Assembly (NCBI GenBank): GCA_026984935.1
Contig: JALSRD010000023.1
Span: forward strand, 1 to 64,000
DNA from: Desulfobacterales bacterium
Lineage (GTDB): Bacteria; Desulfobacterota; Desulfobacteria; Desulfobacterales; JALSRD01
Direction of reading: 5' to 3'
DNA: 64,000 bases
Positions within the stretch are counted from its first letter, which is position 1. Each line of letters opens with the position of its first letter. The position numbers and the translations under genes were made by a program. The notes below the pieces were generated by a model. It was not told the DNA's origin. It did no database searches and saw nothing but the letters and a program-made list of their open reading frames with translations. Below, piece after piece: positions 1 to 62,822 of the stretch.

Positions 1-80
1 TTCCGAACATACCAATGACGCTAAAAATTATCGCGCTGCATCCATAGACAACCATGAGATAACATTACAATTTTATAAGT

Positions 81-112
81 TTTCAAAATTGTCTGTGCAA
101 GATTCAGGTGAT
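81..112 (+). repeat. leader repeat, copy 1 of 3
   Basis: This copy has the core GTCTGTGCAAGATTCAGG, preceded by TTTCAAAATT. A second copy lies 71 bases downstream and a third near 23050. It sits in the AT-rich region upstream of the first gene of the window. It does not directly abut a start codon, unlike copies 2 and 3. The function is unknown; it could be a promoter or operator unit or part of a structured leader. Confidence 0.6.
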
Positions 113-151
113 AGGTCAGTACATCCAGGCAAGCAATAACTTGGCACTATT

Positions 152-182
152 TTTCAAAATAGTCTGTGCAGGATTCAGGTTA
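152..182 (+). repeat. leader repeat, copy 2 of 3
   Basis: The core is GTCTGTGCAGGATTCAGG preceded by TTTCAAAATA. Just after it come ATAACATG and the purine-rich ribosome binding site of the DUF4384-like gene. The same order (core, ATAACATG, ribosome binding site, ATG) recurs at copy 3 in front of the DUF1844 gene near 23106. This points to a shared 5' untranslated element rather than chance similarity. Confidence 0.65.
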
Positions 183-204
183 TAACATGTGGAGGGAGTA
201 TACT

Positions 205-984
205 ATGAGACATCTACTGAAAATGGTAATCGCAATCATCGCAACTACCACTATGGTTGTAGTTTCCAACGCTGCGGCGAAGAATGCCAAAGCTCTCTTT
301 TACGATTCCGGTACCGGAAGTACCATGGCCACGAACAAGGCCGCGTTAACCAAGAAAATCTTGCCTAAAGAGAAGGAAAGTAACGCTGGCGTGCGGTACT
401 GGATCGAACTTTCTCATCCAGGCGAAAATGAAATGTTTCGTGTCAATGCAGACCGCGTTTTCCGAAGCGGCGAGCGGGTTCGAATTCACTATACATCCAA
501 CTATGACGGCTACCTGTATGTAATGCAAAAGGGATCCACTGGGACCAATTCGCTTTTATTTCCTACTCGCCCGGGAACAAAGCAAAATTTGGTCAAGGCC
601 GGACAGGATTTTTCGGCTCCGGCACCAGGATGGTTTAAATTCGATAAGCACGCCGGCTTTGAGCGCATACAGGTTGTCTTTTTCCCACTCAATGGTGATC
701 CTGCAATGGTGACGAAGCTGTCGAGTAACCGTATATCCCGGGTTGTTTTGCAAGACGAATTGCGACGGCTGATTGCCCGCACTGCCGGCTCAAGAGACCT
801 TATCACTGAAATTGACAACAGTTTCTTCTCAAACCATCCCGATACTATTGGAGCACCCATAATGCCCAAACCTGGGTTGGCAAAGGTGTCGGATACAGCT
901 ATGCCGGCGGCCTATGTCGTTAACACAGCCAAAGGCCGGCATATCCCCCCAGTGGTTTTCGAAATAGTGATGAAACACGAATAA
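205..984 (+). CDS. exported DUF4384-like protein
   Basis: This is a 259-residue protein with an N-terminal hydrophobic signal segment (about residues 5-26, ending in ...VVVSNAAA), so it is probably exported. The body carries a region (about residues 75-175) that resembles DUF4384: a statement about a vector of properties (FRSGERVRIHY), a 'DGYLYVM' strand and a 'LLFPTRPG' strand. DUF4384 domains are often fused to, or encoded beside, caspase-fold (C14) proteins in bacteria, and a caspase-like gene lies 1.5 kb downstream. The ATG at 205 is preferred over an in-frame ATG at 166 because GGAGGG lies at 191-196. The coding sequence is clearly more AT-rich than most of the window, which suggests transfer. 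The molecular role is unknown. Confidence 0.65.
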   Translation: MRHLLKMVIAIIATTTMVVVSNAAAKNAKALFYDSGTGSTMATNKAALTKKILPKEKESNAGVRYWIELSHPGENEMFRVNADRVFRSGERVRIHYTSNYDGYLYVMQKGSTGTNSLLFPTRPGTKQNLVKAGQDFSAPAPGWFKFDKHAGFERIQVVFFPLNGDPAMVTKLSSNRISRVVLQDELRRLIARTAGSRDLITEIDNSFFSNHPDTIGAPIMPKPGLAKVSDTAMPAAYVVNTAKGRHIPPVVFEIVMKHE

Positions 985-1007
985 AATTATCCCAACGGAG
1001 GAATAAC

Positions 1008-1523
1008 ATGAAAACCTTAGTTACTCCAAAAAACGTCTTTGCCTTCGGCTTCCTGCTTATTTTTCTTTCTGCCTGTGCTACTGAAGTCACCAGAATTGAA
1101 AAAATGAATTCTTGCGATAAGGCGCGGGAAAATTTGCGCCAAGGAATGGCTTACTCCGGAAACCGGAATTATGGAAATGCAGAAACCGAATTTAAAAAAG
1201 CCATCGAGCTGTGTCCGAAACTGGCCGAAGCTCACGCTAACCTTGGTGTGACTTACATCGCCACACATCAGCTGAACAAAGCGGCGCGATCATTAAACCA
1301 AGCCATATCGTTGGATCCCCAAAACGCTTATGCTTACTATAACCTCGCCGCTGTGTATTCTTTGCAGAAGAAGCTCGATCTTGCATTGGAATCACTAGGG
1401 AAATCACTCGACAGGGATTTTAACAACATAGACGCCTTGCGTAACGATCCAGATCTTAAGAACCTGAGAAGAGAGCCCGGCTTTACCCATCTATTAGAAA
1501 CTCATCGGATATTTCTGAAATAA
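1008..1523 (+). CDS. TPR-repeat lipoprotein
   Basis: This 171-residue protein has a signal peptide ending in a lipobox (LSAC, Cys about residue 23), so it is predicted to be lipid-anchored. Residues ~40-145 contain about three tetratricopeptide repeats, with typical small and aromatic positions (AYSGNRNYGNAETEFKKAIE, then AHANLGVTYIATHQLNKAAR, then AYYNLAAVYSLQKKLDLALE). TPRs mediate protein-protein contacts. The start is supported by CGGAGGA ten bases upstream. It follows the DUF4384-like gene by 23 bases and precedes a second lipoprotein and a caspase-like protein, so it may be an envelope scaffold for that set. The DNA is AT-rich like the gene before it. Confidence 0.75.
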   Translation: MKTLVTPKNVFAFGFLLIFLSACATEVTRIEKMNSCDKARENLRQGMAYSGNRNYGNAETEFKKAIELCPKLAEAHANLGVTYIATHQLNKAARSLNQAISLDPQNAYAYYNLAAVYSLQKKLDLALESLGKSLDRDFNNIDALRNDPDLKNLRREPGFTHLLETHRIFLK

Positions 1524-1645
1524 CAGTTCAGGGCTATCTTATAATAATGAGAGCCTAAAGCGACTCACATTTAACATTTAATCGAAAAATCGAATTGATA
1601 GAACGCCTTCCTTTTTAGAACTGTACATTTTTGTAAGGTTGCAAA

Positions 1646-2452
1646 ATGCGAATAATCATGCGAGGCACAATTATAGTATTTCTTCTTTTGCTGTCTTTAT
1701 ACAGCTGCGCCGGTATAAAATCCGGCATCTTCCAGGAAAAGCTGCCGACCATCGCCCATGTGCATATCGGGCATGCCATCACGAGCTGGAAGACCACCCC
1801 GGACAAGAAAGGACTTCTCGTCGTGGCCGAAGAAGAAGCGGCCATTGCGCTGTCGGAGTCTGAAAAAGCGGTGGCCAAGCCGGAAGACCTGAAGCTGATC
1901 CAGAAACATGTCGGGTATGCAATGAATGCCATCGACCCTGGGTCATATAAAGTGGGCCCGGGCCTCGGTTTCGGTTTAAAAAGAGCGCTGTCGGAATCCA
2001 TCAACCATATCACCTTTGCCGCCCAGTCGGATGACGCCAGCCCGAACGTTAAAGCATTTGCCCCACGCTACGCCACAGCGGCAGAAGCAACCATCAGCCG
2101 ATGCGATCTTATCCTTGCGCTTGGCAGAGAAGTTCTCGAAACGCCATCGGCTACCGAGGCCAGCGCCCTGGCGGAAGAGATTTTAACGCTGAGCCGCGCC
2201 AATGTATCGGGCAGTCAAAAGAAAAACACCCGGGATGTCAACAAGTACGGACTGAAACAGATCAGACGCGAACTCACAGCGATGATTGACCGGGAAAATC
2301 CACCTTACCAGCCGGTTGCGCAACGCTACTTGCTGGGCATCATTCGTCTTCCCAGCGGGAAATGGACCTTTTCCTGGCTGGTCGATCCGTTTTATGATGA
2401 TGTACAAGCCGGCGGCGGGGGTGGAGGTGGCGGCGGCGCCGGGGGTTATTGA
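1646..2452 (+). CDS. unknown lipoprotein with polyglycine C-terminus
   Basis: This is a 268-residue protein of no family I recognise. It begins with a hydrophobic segment and a lipobox-like LYSC (Cys about residue 21). The middle is mixed helical and contains charged stretches (AEEEAAIALSESEKA). The last dozen residues are almost pure glycine (nine consecutive Gly, then AGGY). A second in-frame ATG lies four codons in; 1646 is chosen because AAGG lies seven bases upstream. Its stop is two bases before the start of the caspase-like gene, so the two are probably co-translated. An envelope role next to the caspase-like protein is inference from context only. Confidence 0.6.
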   Translation: MRIIMRGTIIVFLLLLSLYSCAGIKSGIFQEKLPTIAHVHIGHAITSWKTTPDKKGLLVVAEEEAAIALSESEKAVAKPEDLKLIQKHVGYAMNAIDPGSYKVGPGLGFGLKRALSESINHITFAAQSDDASPNVKAFAPRYATAAEATISRCDLILALGREVLETPSATEASALAEEILTLSRANVSGSQKKNTRDVNKYGLKQIRRELTAMIDRENPPYQPVAQRYLLGIIRLPSGKWTFSWLVDPFYDDVQAGGGGGGGGGAGGY

Positions 2453-2454
2453 CC

Positions 2455-4056
2455 ATGCACGCCTTCAGGCACTCCATATGCATACTGGCAACGGCCTTTT
2501 TGCTGTTGTCAGCCGTCGGCGCACAAAAAGCCACGTCCGCTTCAGTGCCTGCCGATGCGACCCGATATGCAGACACCTGCTTTTACGGATCAGGCCAAAA
2601 AGCACTTGAAGCCTGCAAACGGTCTCTTGAAATTACACCCAACCACATCGGGTTGATGCTGAAAATGGCCCAACGGCTGAAAGATCTGCAACGATACGAT
2701 GAAGCCCTCCTGGTGGCCCACAAAACGATACTGCTTTATCCGGCCAGCAGAAAGGCCAAGTATATTATTGAGGAAATCAAAAGCCTCCGGCAAGAGAAAA
2801 AATGGGCCCAGCAACGGCAGAAGCAGGTCTCCGGCGCCAAAGATAAAAAAAACAGCACCCGGTTTAAGCTGAACCGCATCAAATGCCTCAGCCTCAAGGG
2901 GGATAAAGGCCTCAGATCCTGCAATGCGGCCCTGGAAACGGCGCCCGAAGATCCCGCATTGCACCGTGCCCGGGGCGACATACTGCTGAAGATGGGGCGT
3001 AACGCCGATGCAAAGTCCGCTTATGTGGCTGCCCTGCAACTTGCCCCCAACAACCCTGCCTATCAGAAAAAAGTCAACCTGTGGGTAAAATCAGGGCAGC
3101 CGGCCGGATCCGATCACGCAGAAAAAACCCCGACCGTCCACGGAGCTGTTCCAAAACCATTAAAAACGCCCAGTCCAGCAAAAGAGAAGATTATTGGCGA
3201 GATGGCGCTGCTGCGATCTCTTTACGACAAATCACTCATCAGCCAAAAGGAATACAGTCATCGCAAGAAGCTGCTGCTTGATTCTGCTTTTAAGCAACCG
3301 AAAAGCAAACCCCGCGCTGCTGAAACGCCATCCGCCGCGGGTATAGATTTCGGGAAATACCATGCGCTGGTCATCGGGATACAGGACTATCAATATTTAC
3401 CCAAACTCCAAACCGCAAAAAATGATGCCGCCGCGGTGGCCCGGGTTCTCGAAAAAGACTACGGGTTCAAAGTCAAAAGATTGTACAACGCAACGCGGCG
3501 GAAAATCCTGCTGACCCTGACACGGTACCGTAAAAATCTCGGCCCTGACGATAATCTGCTAATTTATTATGCCGGACATGGATGGCTCGACAAGGAAGCC
3601 GATACGGGTTACTGGCTGCCTGTGAACGCCGTTACTGACAACGACGTCGACTGGCTCTCCCTAAACACCATTACCTCGTCCGTAAGGGCGATCGCATCGA
3701 GGCATGTAATGATCGTAGCCGACAGTTGCTACTCCGGGAAACTGACCCGGGGGATACACGTCAAACGTAGAACGCCGGATTATTTTACACGCATCATCAA
3801 AAAACGTGCCCGCGTAGTGCTCACTTCCGGCGGCCTCGAACCGGTTTTAGACAGTGGGGGGGACGATGATCATTCGGTATTTGCAAGCGCCTTTTTAAAC
3901 GCCTTGAAGGACAATCACGGCGTTATCGACGGCACCATGCTGTTTACCAAAATTCGTCGACCGGTCATGCTGAAAGCCTCCCAGACCCCGGAATATGCGG
4001 ACATTCGAAGGGCCGGGCATGAAGGTGGCGATTTTATTTTCGTGCGAACAAGATGA
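2455..4056 (+). CDS. TPR and caspase-like (peptidase C14) protein
   Basis: This 533-residue exported protein has a signal peptide (residues ~1-25), N-terminal TPR-like helices (~30-215), a linker, a SHOCT-like helix pair (~248-282, LRSLYDKSLISQKEY) and a C-terminal caspase-fold peptidase domain (~300-530). The catalytic dyad is visible: His375 in YYAGHG and Cys425 in ADSCYSG. Domains of this C14 type are cysteine peptidases, usually with Arg or Lys specificity. The TPR part probably binds partners or substrates. ATG 2455 is chosen over TTG 2449 because of the GGGGG tract about nine bases upstream and because the signal peptide starts there. It closes a four-gene set with a DUF4384-like protein and two lipoproteins. 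The signal peptide places the peptidase outside the cytoplasm. Confidence 0.85.
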   Translation: MHAFRHSICILATAFLLLSAVGAQKATSASVPADATRYADTCFYGSGQKALEACKRSLEITPNHIGLMLKMAQRLKDLQRYDEALLVAHKTILLYPASRKAKYIIEEIKSLRQEKKWAQQRQKQVSGAKDKKNSTRFKLNRIKCLSLKGDKGLRSCNAALETAPEDPALHRARGDILLKMGRNADAKSAYVAALQLAPNNPAYQKKVNLWVKSGQPAGSDHAEKTPTVHGAVPKPLKTPSPAKEKIIGEMALLRSLYDKSLISQKEYSHRKKLLLDSAFKQPKSKPRAAETPSAAGIDFGKYHALVIGIQDYQYLPKLQTAKNDAAAVARVLEKDYGFKVKRLYNATRRKILLTLTRYRKNLGPDDNLLIYYAGHGWLDKEADTGYWLPVNAVTDNDVDWLSLNTITSSVRAIASRHVMIVADSCYSGKLTRGIHVKRRTPDYFTRIIKKRARVVLTSGGLEPVLDSGGDDDHSVFASAFLNALKDNHGVIDGTMLFTKIRRPVMLKASQTPEYADIRRAGHEGGDFIFVRTR

Positions 4057-4159: not shown

Positions 4160-4885
4160 CTATGATTTACCGGCCGGCTTTCGCGGGCCGTCTGCGAGCT
4201 GCAGCGCTTCCCGCGCCAGGTCCCCGACACTGGTGGGTTGCAGCCGGCCCCGGCAGTAGATCTCCAGCAACGCAGCATCGTCGCACAGCGCTTTCAGCGG
4301 CTCCCTGAACCCGTCCCATGCGAGGGCGCCTGCCGTCCAGGCCGCCAGGCCGCGGTGAAAAGGGTCCGGCGAACCCAGAAAGGGCAACAGGCCGGATGCA
4401 GCCGGCCGGACCCGCAATGGGCTGACATGCGCCAGCCGGCCCAGGCCCCAGAGGAGGCCGCGCTGCAGCAGCGCGTGCTCCAGGTAGTTGTTTCCCTGGG
4501 GCTGGAGGTAAGACAACAGGATCGCACCGAATTCGTCCGCCAGTGTCCGGCTGCGGGCCATGATCTCACCCATGGCCTCGGGGGCGCCCCAGCCGATGCC
4601 GCCGGACTCGTCGTTCAGGCTCCACATCAGGCGGCGCATCACCACACGTGCAAACTCAGCCTCCCCGGCGGCCAGGTTGGCCACCACGGCCCCCATGGCC
4701 GACACCGCCCGCCATTTCAGCATCGGGTCCAGGCTGCAAAAAAAAGAGAACAGGGGGTTGACCACCTGCCGCGGCGGCAGCCGACGGATCTGCGCCAGGG
4801 CGCTGTCCAGATCCGGGCCGCCGAGAAGACTGCGCACTTTGCGCTTCAGAGCCCGTCCGCCGATTTTAGCACCGCCTGTGACCAT
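4160..4885 (-). CDS. HEAT-like repeat protein
   Basis: This 241-residue, largely helical protein has alanine- and leucine-rich repeated helices (MLKWRAVSAMGAVVANLA, ALLQRGLLWGLGRLAHV, HRGLAAWTAGALAWDGF) characteristic of HEAT or PBS-lyase-like armadillo repeats. Similar small HEAT proteins occur in sulfate reducers, and I believe the family is named after DVU0298, but that is from memory. The ATG at 4885 is preferred over the longer open frame because GGAAGG precedes it and the upstream part overlaps the ferredoxin gene. It is the last gene of a tight run with the ferredoxin and FprA/Roo. Its function is unknown; a chaperone or maturation role for a redox partner is speculation. Confidence 0.65.
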   Translation of the reverse strand: MVTGGAKIGGRALKRKVRSLLGGPDLDSALAQIRRLPPRQVVNPLFSFFCSLDPMLKWRAVSAMGAVVANLAAGEAEFARVVMRRLMWSLNDESGGIGWGAPEAMGEIMARSRTLADEFGAILLSYLQPQGNNYLEHALLQRGLLWGLGRLAHVSPLRVRPAASGLLPFLGSPDPFHRGLAAWTAGALAWDGFREPLKALCDDAALLEIYCRGRLQPTSVGDLAREALQLADGPRKPAGKS

Positions 4886-27134: not shown

Positions 27135-27236
27135 ACCCGTGCCAAACGGCGCCAGCAGCGATGCGTCCGTTTTGCCAGCCAGAGCTGCACCGCCCACGGC
27201 GGGCAGCCCGAATGAACAAATTAAGGAGGCAATCCC

Positions 27237-27878
27237 TTGAAACCCATTGAAATTAAAGCCAACATCCGTCAGGCCACCGGCAACGGCCCGGCCCGCAGCC
27301 TGCGACGTCAGGGAAAATTGCCGGCCGTCCTGTACGGCCCCGGCCGGGAGCCGGTGCTGCTCAGCATCCAGACCTATGAACTGGAACAGGTGGCGGGCAG
27401 AGGGCAGGTCGGACAACAACTCCTGAACCTGACCCTCGACGACCGGGAAAAACACCCGGCCATGATCAAGGAGCTTCAGCGGCACCCGGTGACCAGGACC
27501 CCGCTACACGTCGATTTTTATGAAATTGCCATGGACCGTAAAATTTCGGTTAAAGTTCCCGTCGTGACCACCGGGAAATGCCGGGGGGTCGAGATGGGCG
27601 GCATGCTGCAGATTATCCGCCGCGAACTGGAAGTCGCCTGTTTCCCCGGGCAGATACCGGAAGTTATTGAAGTCGACATCTCCGAACTGGACATCGGAGA
27701 TTCCGTGCATGTCCAGGAAATCCCGTTGGAAAGCGGCGTCGAGATCGCTTCTGAAACCAATTTCACGGTCATGACCGTGCTCAGCCCCAAGATGGAAGCC
27801 GAAGAGGAGACCGAGGAAGAAGAGGCTGAAGCCCTTGCCGAAGGTGAAGAAGAAACCGAAACCGAAGCTGCCGAATAG
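27237..27878 (+). CDS. rplY: large ribosomal subunit protein bL25 (CTC form)
   Basis: This 213-residue protein belongs to the long CTC form of L25: an N-terminal 5S rRNA-binding domain (~1-95) and a C-terminal TL5-like domain (~95-185), then a strongly acidic tail of Glu and Ala. Motifs include RQATGNGPARSLRRQGKLPA and VHVQEIPLESGVEI. It starts with TTG at 27237, fixed by AAGGAGG at 27223-27229. It is followed 17 to 29 bases later by pth. Confidence 0.95.
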   Translation: MKPIEIKANIRQATGNGPARSLRRQGKLPAVLYGPGREPVLLSIQTYELEQVAGRGQVGQQLLNLTLDDREKHPAMIKELQRHPVTRTPLHVDFYEIAMDRKISVKVPVVTTGKCRGVEMGGMLQIIRRELEVACFPGQIPEVIEVDISELDIGDSVHVQEIPLESGVEIASETNFTVMTVLSPKMEAEEETEEEEAEALAEGEEETETEAAE

Positions 27879-58765: not shown

Positions 58766-59212
58766 TCAGAGCCCCAACGCGGCAATTTCGGCGCCCACGG
58801 TGCCCTGCTGCATGTCGGCCTTCATCTGCTGTTTTTCCTTCTCCCAGTTTTCGCGGGACCAGATTTCAAAGTGGTCCAGCAGGCCGGCCAGCACAATGTC
58901 CTTTTCAAGCTGGGCATCTTCACGCAGGCTCTGGGGAATCAGGATACGGCTCTGTTTGTCGCACATGCACTGGTGGGCGCCGCCGATGAAAAAACGTTTG
59001 AAGCGCCGCATACTGGTGCTGGTTTCGGCCAGTGACAGCACCTTGGCTTCAATTTTGTTCCACTGCTCGAAGGTATAGGCGTACAACCCTTTTTCCAGGG
59101 TGGTCAGCATCACCCCGTTGCCGCCGACAGCATGGATCACGTCCCGGAAACGGGCCGGAATGACCAGCCGCCCCTTGGGATCGACGGTATGAAAAGAGTT
59201 GCCTCGAAACAC
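58766..59212 (-). CDS. mraZ: transcriptional regulator MraZ
   Basis: This 148-residue protein has two SpoVT/AbrB-like MraZ domains (FRGNSFHTVDPKGRLVIPAR and CDKQSRILIPQSLRED). It represses the dcw cluster in E. coli and activates it in Mollicutes by binding tandem short repeats at its own promoter. It starts with GTG at 59212, and its ribosome binding site lies within such repeats. It is the first dcw gene here. Confidence 0.95.
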   Translation of the reverse strand: MFRGNSFHTVDPKGRLVIPARFRDVIHAVGGNGVMLTTLEKGLYAYTFEQWNKIEAKVLSLAETSTSMRRFKRFFIGGAHQCMCDKQSRILIPQSLREDAQLEKDIVLAGLLDHFEIWSRENWEKEKQQMKADMQQGTVGAEIAALGL

Positions 59213-59214
59213 GA

Positions 59215-59244
59215 ATCCCCCTCTTTACCCCACTTTATTCCACT
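59215..59244 (-). promoter_or_regulatory. MraZ-type operator, three tandem 10-base repeats
   Basis: Read on the minus strand, three direct repeats of ten bases follow one another: AGTGGAATAA, AGTGGGGTAA, AGAGGGGGAT. With the preceding AA this is AAAGTGG repeated, as reported for MraZ binding sites. The last repeat contains the mraZ ribosome binding site (GAGGGGG) directly before the GTG start. Regulation could therefore be autogenous at both levels. Confidence 0.75.
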
Positions 59245-59254
59245 TTCTGGGATT

Positions 59255-59282
59255 ACTAAATATATTTTTAGCCATCTGTCAA
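59255..59282 (-). promoter_or_regulatory. candidate promoter of the dcw operon
   Basis: A perfect TTGACA (59277-59282 on -) is followed by a 16-base spacer and TTTAGT (59255-59260), four of six to the -10 consensus. The transcript would pass through the MraZ repeats before the mraZ start. The -10 match is modest. Confidence 0.4.
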
Positions 59283-59440
59283 GCAAAAAGAACATTGCAA
59301 TAAAAAAATTTAATAATAATTCACGAATGTTAAAACCATAATCCCGTGTTGTTGGCGCCAGTGGCAAATTGTGGTGCAATTTTAATAAAATCAGGGGGCC
59401 TTATCCAATGCCAACGGGTGCGCCGGACAATCTTGACCAT

Positions 59441-59547
59441 CTCGTAAAAAGTCGAAAATCCGAATCGCAACCACAAGATAACCAAATAAAAACTGCTCAG
59501 AGACACATTATTTTGTGCACCACAGAAAATTACGGGACTTTTTGCGA
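59441..59547. repeat. MITE-like inverted repeat
   Basis: CTCGTAAAAAGTC (59441-59453) and its near-complement GACTTTTTGCGAG (59535-59547) face each other across about 80 bases, with one mismatch in 13. Partly complementary bases continue outward (TTGACCAT and GTCCATCAA). This resembles a small non-autonomous inverted-repeat element. No ORF is inside. No other copy was noticed in the window. Confidence 0.45.
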
Positions 59548-59873
59548 GTCCATCAACCTTGACAATCATGAAATATTTTCCTATGCTGGATTTAAATGGC
59601 ACGCCCACGTGCGCGCCAACCCTTCCGATTATTGTACGTTGGGCGCCTCTTCCAGCGGCGCCGGCGGGAGCAGTTCCACCCCCGGAATTGAAAACTTTTA
59701 GTCAGCTAATCGGTCTGATATTGCTTAAAAATCCTGGTTAATATACCTGCGCTGGGCTGCGAGAGCTTACCGGTGTGCAACAGGGGCGGTAAACCGCCCG
59801 AATGGCCACCGCAATGAGGGATATATAGCCAAAACACCGTAACCGGCTGCATTCGGAGACACTGACGCTTTCC

Positions 59874-62822
59874 ATGGATCGGCGGACCTTTCTCAAACTC
59901 AGCGGCAGCTGTGCGATTTCCATCTCAGCCGGCTGCAACAGCGAACCTGCCAAACACCTCTTTTCCATGGTCCGTGCACCGCAGGATATGGTCGCCGGCC
60001 AACCCACCTGGTACGCCACCACCTGCCGGGAATGTCCGGCCGGCTGCGGCATGCTGGCCAAGATCAGGGAGGGGCGCGTAATCAAAGTGGAGGGAAATCC
60101 CCTGCACGCCATCAACCGCGGCCGGTTGTGCATGCGGGGCCAGGCAACCCTGCAGGGAATCTACAACCCGGACCGCATCAAAACAGCGCTGCTGAAGCAC
60201 AACGGGAAATTCAAGCCCATATCGTACGCCCGCGCCCTGTCGCTTCTGGCACAACGATCCCGGCAGGCTGCAGACCGTGGACCGGATCGGGTGTACGTCC
60301 TGACGGAAAGCGTGGGCGAATTCGTACACGCACATTTTTCCAAAACGCTGGCGGCGTTGAACTCCACCCGGCTGATGGTCTTCGAGCCTTTTGCCTACGA
60401 AGCGCTCAAAACCGCCAACCGCCAGATTTTCGGCCTCGACGGGCTCTGCGCCTACCGCATGCAAACGGCCGACCTGATCGTTTCACTGGGTGCCGATTTC
60501 CTGGAAACCTGGCTGTCGCCGGTGGAATACGCGCGCAAATTCAAGGCCATGCATGCAGCCCGGGGAAATGCGAAAACGGGACGCTTCTTCCACATCGGCC
60601 CCTACCGGTCACTGACCGCCGCCAACGCCGACCGCTGGCTGGCCTGCCGCCCCGGTGCCGAAGCCTTCGTCGCCATGGGGCTGATCCGGCAGGCGCTCAA
60701 TGCCGGTGCCGGCGGCGCACTGGGGCCGGCGGCACAGCAGACGCTGCGGGAGCTGACCGCCGGCTACCGTCTCGAAAAAGTCGCCGCCGTGAGCGGCATT
60801 TCCACGGACATCCTGCAACACCTGTCCCAGGTCATGCTGGCGTCCAGGCGCCCGTTGTTTCTGGGGACGCCCAGCGCCGCCTGCGGGCCCAACGCCCTGC
60901 AGGCCAACATAGGCGCCAACCTGCTGCAGCGCATACTGGACCCGGAACTGCAGCGCATCGACTTCAACGGGCGGCACCGGGTGGAAACAGCCCACCGGCG
61001 TTCGGAAATATACAGCTTCTGCCGGCAACTGGCCGCCGATCCGCAGGGTGTTCTGCTGCTGCACAACGCCAACTTGCGCCACTGTCTGCCCCCCCAAAAC
61101 GGCATCGCCCGCGCCCTGGCAGAGAAAACCCTTTTTACGGTCAGCTTCAGCAACTTCATGGACGCGACCACCCGGCATGCCGACCTGGTCCTGCCCGTAC
61201 GGCTGCCCCTGGAAAGCTGGGGTGAATACGGCGGAAAGGCGGGCCTGGTGTCCACCCTGCAGCCGGCCATGCCGGCGCTGACCGGAGCGCCGCATCTGGT
61301 CGACGTACTGGCGGCCCTGATACCGGATGTGCGGCCGGGTGGCCGGTACGCACGACACTCCCTTTATACGCATCTGAAGCACACCGGGGTCTTGAGAAAC
61401 CGGCTGCAGTGGACCCAGACCCTGCAGAAGGGGGGCATTTTCCAAAAGTTCGCCGCAGAGGACAGACCGCCACTGCCGGAACTTGCCGAGGGGCCCCACA
61501 TGGATGCGCTGCGCGCAATGGTGCCCCCGCAGGCCGGCGGGTTGAGCCTGATCGCCGCGCCATCTATACGGGTTTTCGACGGACGCGGCGCCAATCGGCC
61601 CTGGCTCAGCGAAATTCCGGACCCGCTGACCAAAGTGGCCTGGCAGACGCCGGTGCAGGTGCACCCCGCAACACTGGCCCAGCGCGGCCTGGCCCAGGGA
61701 AGCGTGGTGCGCGTCCAGTCCGAAAAGGGCGTGCTGGAAACACCGGCCTACGCCAGCCACGGCACCATCCCGGACGTGCTGATCATGGAAATCGGCCAGG
61801 GGCATGCAGGATTCGGCCGCTACGCCCAGAAGGAAAGCGTCAATCCCTTTCACCTGTTTCCCGCACGCACCGACGCGCGCAGCGGCGGCCCCGCATTCTA
61901 CACGCCGCTGACGACCATCAAAGACAGCGGGCAGCGTGCAGACATCGTACATACCGACGGCAGCCGCACCCAACACGGCCGGCAAATTGCGCTGGCAGTG
62001 CCCGTTTCCGATCTGGTCGAAGGGAAACGCCCGCCTGCGCCGGGCCTGACCATGGAGACTTTCCCGCTGACCCTGCCGCTGCCGGCCGGCTATGACAAAA
62101 AGCGGGATTTCTACCCCGCCCACCCGCACAGCCGGTATCGCTGGTCCATGATCGTCGACCTGGACCGCTGCATCGGCTGCGGCGCGTGCGCGGCGGCCTG
62201 CTACGCCGAGAACAACCTGGCCGTGGTGGGCAAAGCGCGCATGCTCGAGGGCCGTGAAATGTCCTGGATGCGCATTGAGCGCTACCTGGACCCCGAGCAT
62301 CCCGAACGGGTGATTTTTCTGCCCATGCTGTGCCAGCACTGCGACAACGCACCCTGCGAGCCCGTCTGCCCGGTTTACGCCCCGCACCACTCCAAAGAGG
62401 GCATCAACAACCAGATATACAACCGCTGCATCGGCACCCGCTTCTGTTCCCAGAACTGCCCTTACAAGGTGCGCCGCTTCAACTGGTTCGACTGGCAGCG
62501 CCCCGACCCGCTGCCTTTGCAGCTCAATCCCGATGTCACCGTGCGCGCCAAGGGCGTCATGGAAAAATGCTCTTTCTGCGTCCAGCGCATCAAAGACGCC
62601 CATGACCGCGCCAAGAACGCAAAACGGGCTGTTTTCGACGGGGAGGTGACGCCGGCCTGCGCCCAGACCTGCCCCACGCAGGCACTCACCTTCGGCAACC
62701 TGATGGACCCGCACAGCCGGGTCGCGCGACTGGTGCACAACCCGCGCGCCTACCAGGTGATGGGCTACCTGAACACCAAACCGGCGGTGATCTACCTGAA
62801 AAAAGTTATCTGGGAGGGTTAA
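59874..62822 (+). CDS. actB: fused molybdopterin-family / iron-sulfur subunit of an Act/Qrc-type complex
   Basis: This 982-residue protein has an N-terminal twin-arginine signal (DRRTFLKLSG), a molybdopterin-oxidoreductase-like domain (~40-730; TTCRECPAGCGM then LCMRG provide a cluster), and a C-terminal NrfC/PsrB-like domain (~745-980) with four cysteine groups (CIGCGACAAAC, CQHCDNAPCEPVCP, CIGTRFCSQNCP and CSFCVQRI...CAQTCP). Such fusion is typical of ActB of alternative complex III; in Qrc of Desulfovibrio the two parts are separate proteins. These domains in ActB/QrcB lack Mo and act in electron transfer to or from quinone. An NrfD-like gene follows seven bases after. The signal indicates periplasmic location. 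Confidence 0.85.
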   Translation: MDRRTFLKLSGSCAISISAGCNSEPAKHLFSMVRAPQDMVAGQPTWYATTCRECPAGCGMLAKIREGRVIKVEGNPLHAINRGRLCMRGQATLQGIYNPDRIKTALLKHNGKFKPISYARALSLLAQRSRQAADRGPDRVYVLTESVGEFVHAHFSKTLAALNSTRLMVFEPFAYEALKTANRQIFGLDGLCAYRMQTADLIVSLGADFLETWLSPVEYARKFKAMHAARGNAKTGRFFHIGPYRSLTAANADRWLACRPGAEAFVAMGLIRQALNAGAGGALGPAAQQTLRELTAGYRLEKVAAVSGISTDILQHLSQVMLASRRPLFLGTPSAACGPNALQANIGANLLQRILDPELQRIDFNGRHRVETAHRRSEIYSFCRQLAADPQGVLLLHNANLRHCLPPQNGIARALAEKTLFTVSFSNFMDATTRHADLVLPVRLPLESWGEYGGKAGLVSTLQPAMPALTGAPHLVDVLAALIPDVRPGGRYARHSLYTHLKHTGVLRNRLQWTQTLQKGGIFQKFAAEDRPPLPELAEGPHMDALRAMVPPQAGGLSLIAAPSIRVFDGRGANRPWLSEIPDPLTKVAWQTPVQVHPATLAQRGLAQGSVVRVQSEKGVLETPAYASHGTIPDVLIMEIGQGHAGFGRYAQKESVNPFHLFPARTDARSGGPAFYTPLTTIKDSGQRADIVHTDGSRTQHGRQIALAVPVSDLVEGKRPPAPGLTMETFPLTLPLPAGYDKKRDFYPAHPHSRYRWSMIVDLDRCIGCGACAAACYAENNLAVVGKARMLEGREMSWMRIERYLDPEHPERVIFLPMLCQHCDNAPCEPVCPVYAPHHSKEGINNQIYNRCIGTRFCSQNCPYKVRRFNWFDWQRPDPLPLQLNPDVTVRAKGVMEKCSFCVQRIKDAHDRAKNAKRAVFDGEVTPACAQTCPTQALTFGNLMDPHSRVARLVHNPRAYQVMGYLNTKPAVIYLKKVIWEG

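Follow-up and report, generated by a model that had tools for sequence, protein, structure and literature searches.

The caspase gene cluster at the start of the window (the whole stretch of DNA analysed, bases 1-64000 of contig C23, from a 3.9-Mb Desulfobacterales genome of 112 contigs) is a locally expanded version of a recurrent, uncharacterised envelope module. With moderate confidence, we read its five co-directional genes as encoding an envelope-located orthocaspase module, which would carry out Arg/Lys-specific proteolysis in the periplasm or at the outer membrane. Discussion of caspase homologs in bacteria has mostly centred on cytoplasmic effectors of death or immunity. Many caspases of the order seem to be exported and linked to DUF4384, to which no function is assigned, and the presumed envelope role of this large exported group can now be approached through a small gene set open to experimental test.

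Four consecutive ORFs lie on the forward strand of C23 at the cluster, and all four were confirmed to be real (Table 1). ORF calls, Pfam, and a check of individual residues bear out the domains given for them in the preliminary description, including an intact catalytic dyad in the 533-aa ATG reading of gene 4. The gene 4 ATG is 2 nt past the gene 3 stop codon; downstream, an opposite-strand ORF convergent with the cluster ends at 4160, and an FprA-like flavoprotein gene (named by eye) follows the cluster. GC content is 0.487 in gene 1, 0.44 in gene 2, 0.548 in gene 3, and 0.525 in gene 4, against 0.601 for the window, so all four genes are AT-rich relative to it; the deviating composition first ascribed to genes 1 and 2 is therefore real but is shared by genes 3 and 4. 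Elsewhere in the window, local GC falls to 0.496 at 59001-60000, within surrounding DNA of ~0.64. A tRNA was the sole match of an Rfam scan.

Table 1. Features at the start of contig C23, in window positions
Feature	Position	Strand	Size and basis
3' part of ~260-bp interspersed repeat	1..110	+	contig C23 begins within the repeat
Second, partial copy of the repeat's 3' end	151..184	+	34 nt, 91% identical
Gene 1, DUF4384 protein, Sec-type N-terminus	205..984	+	259 aa; PF14326, N-terminus, ortholog in sister species
Gene 2, TPR lipoprotein	1008..1523	+	171 aa; TPR families, lipobox LSAC, counterpart in sister species
Gene 3, probable lipoprotein, no known family	1646..2452	+	268 aa; orthologous protein in sister species only
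Gene 4, TPR-(SHOCT)-Peptidase_C14, export-type N-terminus	2455..4056 (ATG)	+	533 aa; His375/Cys425; ortholog in sister species

The product of gene 1 matches PF14326 (DUF4384) with 47.2 bits (E = 2.4e-12; cut-off 27), and its N-terminus, MRHLLKMVIAIIATTTMVVVSNAAA, fits a Sec signal by hydropathy and rules. Its predicted fold is a β-sandwich (pLDDT 74.6; block means of 73-94 for residues 61-190) that had no significant match when the model was compared with the PDB (best E = 0.027), and we take it only as a hint of the possible fold class. Gene 2 matches TPR families (E-values down to 8e-18 in Pfam, and TPR_END_plus in NCBIfam), and its lipobox is a good one by rule. Gene 3 matches no family in Pfam, NCBIfam, or PADLOC. 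By the same kind of rule its lipobox, LYSC (SYGC in the sister protein), is acceptable though not ideal; the protein has a glycine-rich C-terminus and five His residues, all of which are retained in the sister protein. The gene 3 model is mostly helical at low confidence (mean pLDDT 55.8) and has no significant match in the PDB; weak structure matches to a cytochrome b562-like bundle are not counted as evidence. Gene 4 combines a Peptidase_C14 domain (70.5 bits; cut-off 21.4) with TPRs and a weak, sub-threshold SHOCT match, and its N-terminus also fits a Sec signal by hydropathy and rules.

That the cluster has four genes, as first described, is an artefact of where the contig starts: the four are indeed consecutive, but the sister species (G001, a Desulfobacteraceae MAG) has at least five. 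Its contig C368 encodes, in one direction, a PAS-LuxR protein, a 126-aa protein, a caspase-DUF4384 fusion of 472 aa, the DUF4384 protein, the TPR lipoprotein, the gene 3 ortholog, and the start of the TPR-caspase, which continues on C367. The set thus occurs in the same order in a sister species, which supports the preliminary description. The gene 1 ortholog, next in order after the fusion, is 40% identical, the gene 2 counterpart 38% identical over 98 aa, the gene 3 ortholog 63%, and the gene 4 ortholog, split across the two contigs, 60%. In the window's own genome, the PAS-LuxR gene and the gene for the 126-aa protein recur at the end of contig C108, followed by a fusion of 477 aa that is 72% identical to its sister and matches Peptidase C14 with 81.6 bits (cut-off 21.4). 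The gene order of the sister species strongly implies that C108 probably joins the start of C23, making a five-gene block. The last 100 bases of C108 are the first 100 of the window; we rejected this overlap as proof of adjacency, because it is repeat sequence common to other contig ends, and the exact 100-mer is also present on contigs C19, C83, and C109. The PAS-LuxR gene and the gene for the 126-aa protein, which belongs to no family, immediately precede the cluster in both species (L006 5674-8167; L005 5080-6905), and the 126-aa protein has just two further matches, both weak, among 58 relatives from the order.

The repeat itself is ~260 bp long and present in ~40 copies in this genome, mostly 93-98% identical, with ~14-nt inverted ends (ACCTGAATYTTGCA...TGCAAGATTCAGGT). 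It is located at many contig ends; the C108 copy (27155-27405) starts directly past the stop codon of the fusion gene, and the partial copy in the window lies immediately upstream of the gene 1 ribosome-binding site. A search of the sister species did not find it. The repeat has the appearance of a MITE-like element that has spread recently.

A C14 match, a His-Cys dyad, and two pocket Asp residues for a basic P1 place the cluster's caspases among the Peptidase C14 orthocaspases. The dyad of the fusion is H119/C171. In an alignment of the gene 4 caspase domain with its 11 closest relatives (12 sequences, 43-75% identical), the His and Cys are invariant, as are the DSC-motif Asp and an Asp toward the N-terminus (Asp40 of A2); the equivalent Asp residues of the fusion align to metacaspases with solved structures, metacaspase-1 among them. 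Such paired pocket Asp residues have been tied to basic substrates (PMC6426788), and the positions were assigned to the pocket from that work and from knowledge of metacaspases. From these pocket residues, the cluster caspases are predicted to cut after Arg/Lys.

In both species, every one of the five products has a Sec-type or lipobox N-terminus, and hydropathy gave no further or internal transmembrane segment in any of them (for the sister caspase, in the N-terminal part only); these and all other export calls come from hydropathy and cleavage or lipobox rules, not SignalP. Both the C14 and the DUF4384 products thus carry export signals by rule in both species. The TPR-caspase of the sister species has a signal sequence of its own that differs from the window's, which suggests that export has been kept by selection. 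An exported caspase had been proposed from the outset, and its export-type N-terminus, kept in both species, agrees with this; envelope location is the best reading of the N-termini of the cluster.

Among 58 relatives from the order there are 61 over-cut-off matches to PF14326, and 42 of these have a caspase match within 5 kb, where chance would give ~0.8 (three of the caspase places, G001:C367, G014:C22, and G037:C158, were drawn from a separate search); the pairing of C14 with DUF4384 does recur, as claimed. Pairs of an exported caspase and an exported DUF4384 protein are found in at least four other genera (G017, G026, G037, and G041); in three of these the caspase bears TPR or ankyrin repeats. 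G047 has a further adjacent pair in which the caspase start is unclear. These cassettes and the strong linkage indicate that a core module of exported caspase and DUF4384 protein recurs in the order. Among the closest caspase relatives, lipoproteins predominate, and their N-terminal repeat or Ig-like domains vary; in G048 an ankyrin-caspase lipoprotein is preceded by two TPR-type lipoproteins. Of the 59 caspase genes at the fetched loci, a sample biased toward close relatives and the surroundings of DUF4384 genes, at least 47 encode an N-terminus that the rules class as export-type (signal, membrane, or lipobox); the remaining 12 include several that are truncated or that the rules plainly missed. 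An exported caspase accompanied by lipoproteins, at first thought special in itself, is accordingly not so: most sampled caspases of the order look exported, and metacaspases that are exported or membrane-bound, as well as operons with several metacaspases, had already been described in 2012 (PMC3501461).

Tandem and duplicated arrangements were also observed. In G009, contig C122 carries five exported caspase genes in tandem (L049 3757-12677). In G014, contig C54 carries twice (L043 88-2651, 11563-13967), in copies 61-78% identical, a three-gene unit of a caspase lipoprotein, a small exported protein, and a lipoprotein of no family.

PF00656 matches occur in 37 of the 58 genomes, the largest number being 24, in G009; the other 21 genomes have no C14 match. 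Exported C14 paralogs so widespread, together with the hemC-like divergence of three of the five proteins, would suit a housekeeping role in envelope quality control or in the processing of lipoproteins by ordinary periplasmic Arg/Lys proteases, unrelated to signalling, death, or defence; we regard this as somewhat unlikely in view of the patchy distribution and of gene 3, which is genus-specific. A neighbourhood search anchored on this lipoprotein, as first suggested, recovered the same cluster in the sister species but none outside the genus: no gene 3 relative outside it was detected in the 58 order relatives, 395 phylum genomes, a scan of GTDB contigs (in which the sister species was the only match), or plasmids. 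The exact set including gene 3 was found only in two species of one genus. What sets the genus apart, on the sequences compared, is an expansion that comprises two caspases, a TPR lipoprotein, and a further lipoprotein for which no relative was detected outside the genus.

Between the two species, three of the five cluster proteins are 60-72% identical, and hemC is 68% identical. Genes 1 and 2 are just ~40% identical, and partner roles may consequently not be conserved. In the sister species the cluster (L005 382-4798, C368) has a GC3 of 0.36-0.47, against 0.857 for the PAS-LuxR gene, and the surrounding DNA has a GC of ~0.68. We did not accept recent horizontal transfer as the cause of the AT-richness, since three of the five proteins diverge about as hemC does; the difference in composition is, as far as these comparisons indicate, old but unameliorated.

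The same hemC-like retention in the genus argues against a cell-death or fratricide module, whose exported caspases would kill or lyse the producer or its neighbours at the surface. Surface cell death or fratricide has been suggested for exported metacaspases (PMC3501461), and the two proteases of the cluster could form a cascade; however, there is no lysin, amidase, immunity, or secretion gene among the cluster genes, and we consider this explanation clearly unlikely. Surface defence, raised in the preliminary description, fared worse. For anti-phage defence by a caspase effector exported to the surface there are a weak match to the generic PADLOC 'caspase' profile, the only PADLOC match, and a composition that differs from the chromosome. 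Against it, the cluster genes include no sensor, NTPase or other nucleotide-signalling component such as a nucleotide cyclase, nor a CRISPR, TIR, or nuclease part, and the nearby genes that were read look metabolic (hemC-, cobA/hemD-, and moaA-like genes on C108 and the FprA-like flavoprotein gene, named by eye). The known caspase effectors act in the cytoplasm, and we judge such a defence role highly improbable.

If the cluster is an envelope-located orthocaspase module, the TPR lipoprotein and the helical lipoprotein would be anchored in the outer (or inner) membrane and would hold the TPR-caspase there, in an inactive form, as their partner. An envelope signal might then cause the lipoproteins to release or activate the TPR-caspase, after which the caspases would cut proteins of the envelope or the surface on the C-terminal side of basic residues. 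The DUF4384 β-sandwich, common to protease and non-protease members, may be a ligand- or partner-binding domain, and the adjacent PAS-LuxR regulator may control expression of the cluster. A more elaborate version, in which an envelope or contact signal sets off a two-step extracytoplasmic cascade and the TPR-caspase, tethered by lipoproteins, is processed by the exported caspase-DUF4384 protein, seems to us quite improbable; if true, it would be a bacterial parallel, outside the cytoplasm, to initiator and executioner caspases.

Several described groups resemble the cluster in part. The best NCBIfam caspase profile for gene 4 is that of the EACC1-associated caspases (NF047832; 74.4 bits), but the match is below the 140-bit cut-off, and, unlike these and the conflict-system caspases, gene 4 is of exported type and no EACC1 or NTPase partners were seen. 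DUF4384 occurs in 23 of 473 cyanobacterial orthocaspases (PMC8283722), and the cluster shares with such C14-DUF4384 fusions and pairs both a fusion protein and a separate DUF4384 protein adjoining a caspase; it differs in grouping the fusion, the free DUF4384 protein, a second caspase, and lipoproteins. With the prokaryotic metacaspases or orthocaspases (C14, PF00656; PMC3501461) it has in common the C14 match, the His-Cys dyad, acidic pocket residues, a TPR fusion, an N-terminal helix or signal, and more than one caspase per cluster. The cluster goes beyond these in having a TPR lipoprotein as well as a helical one specific to the genus, and in that each of its five products looks exported.
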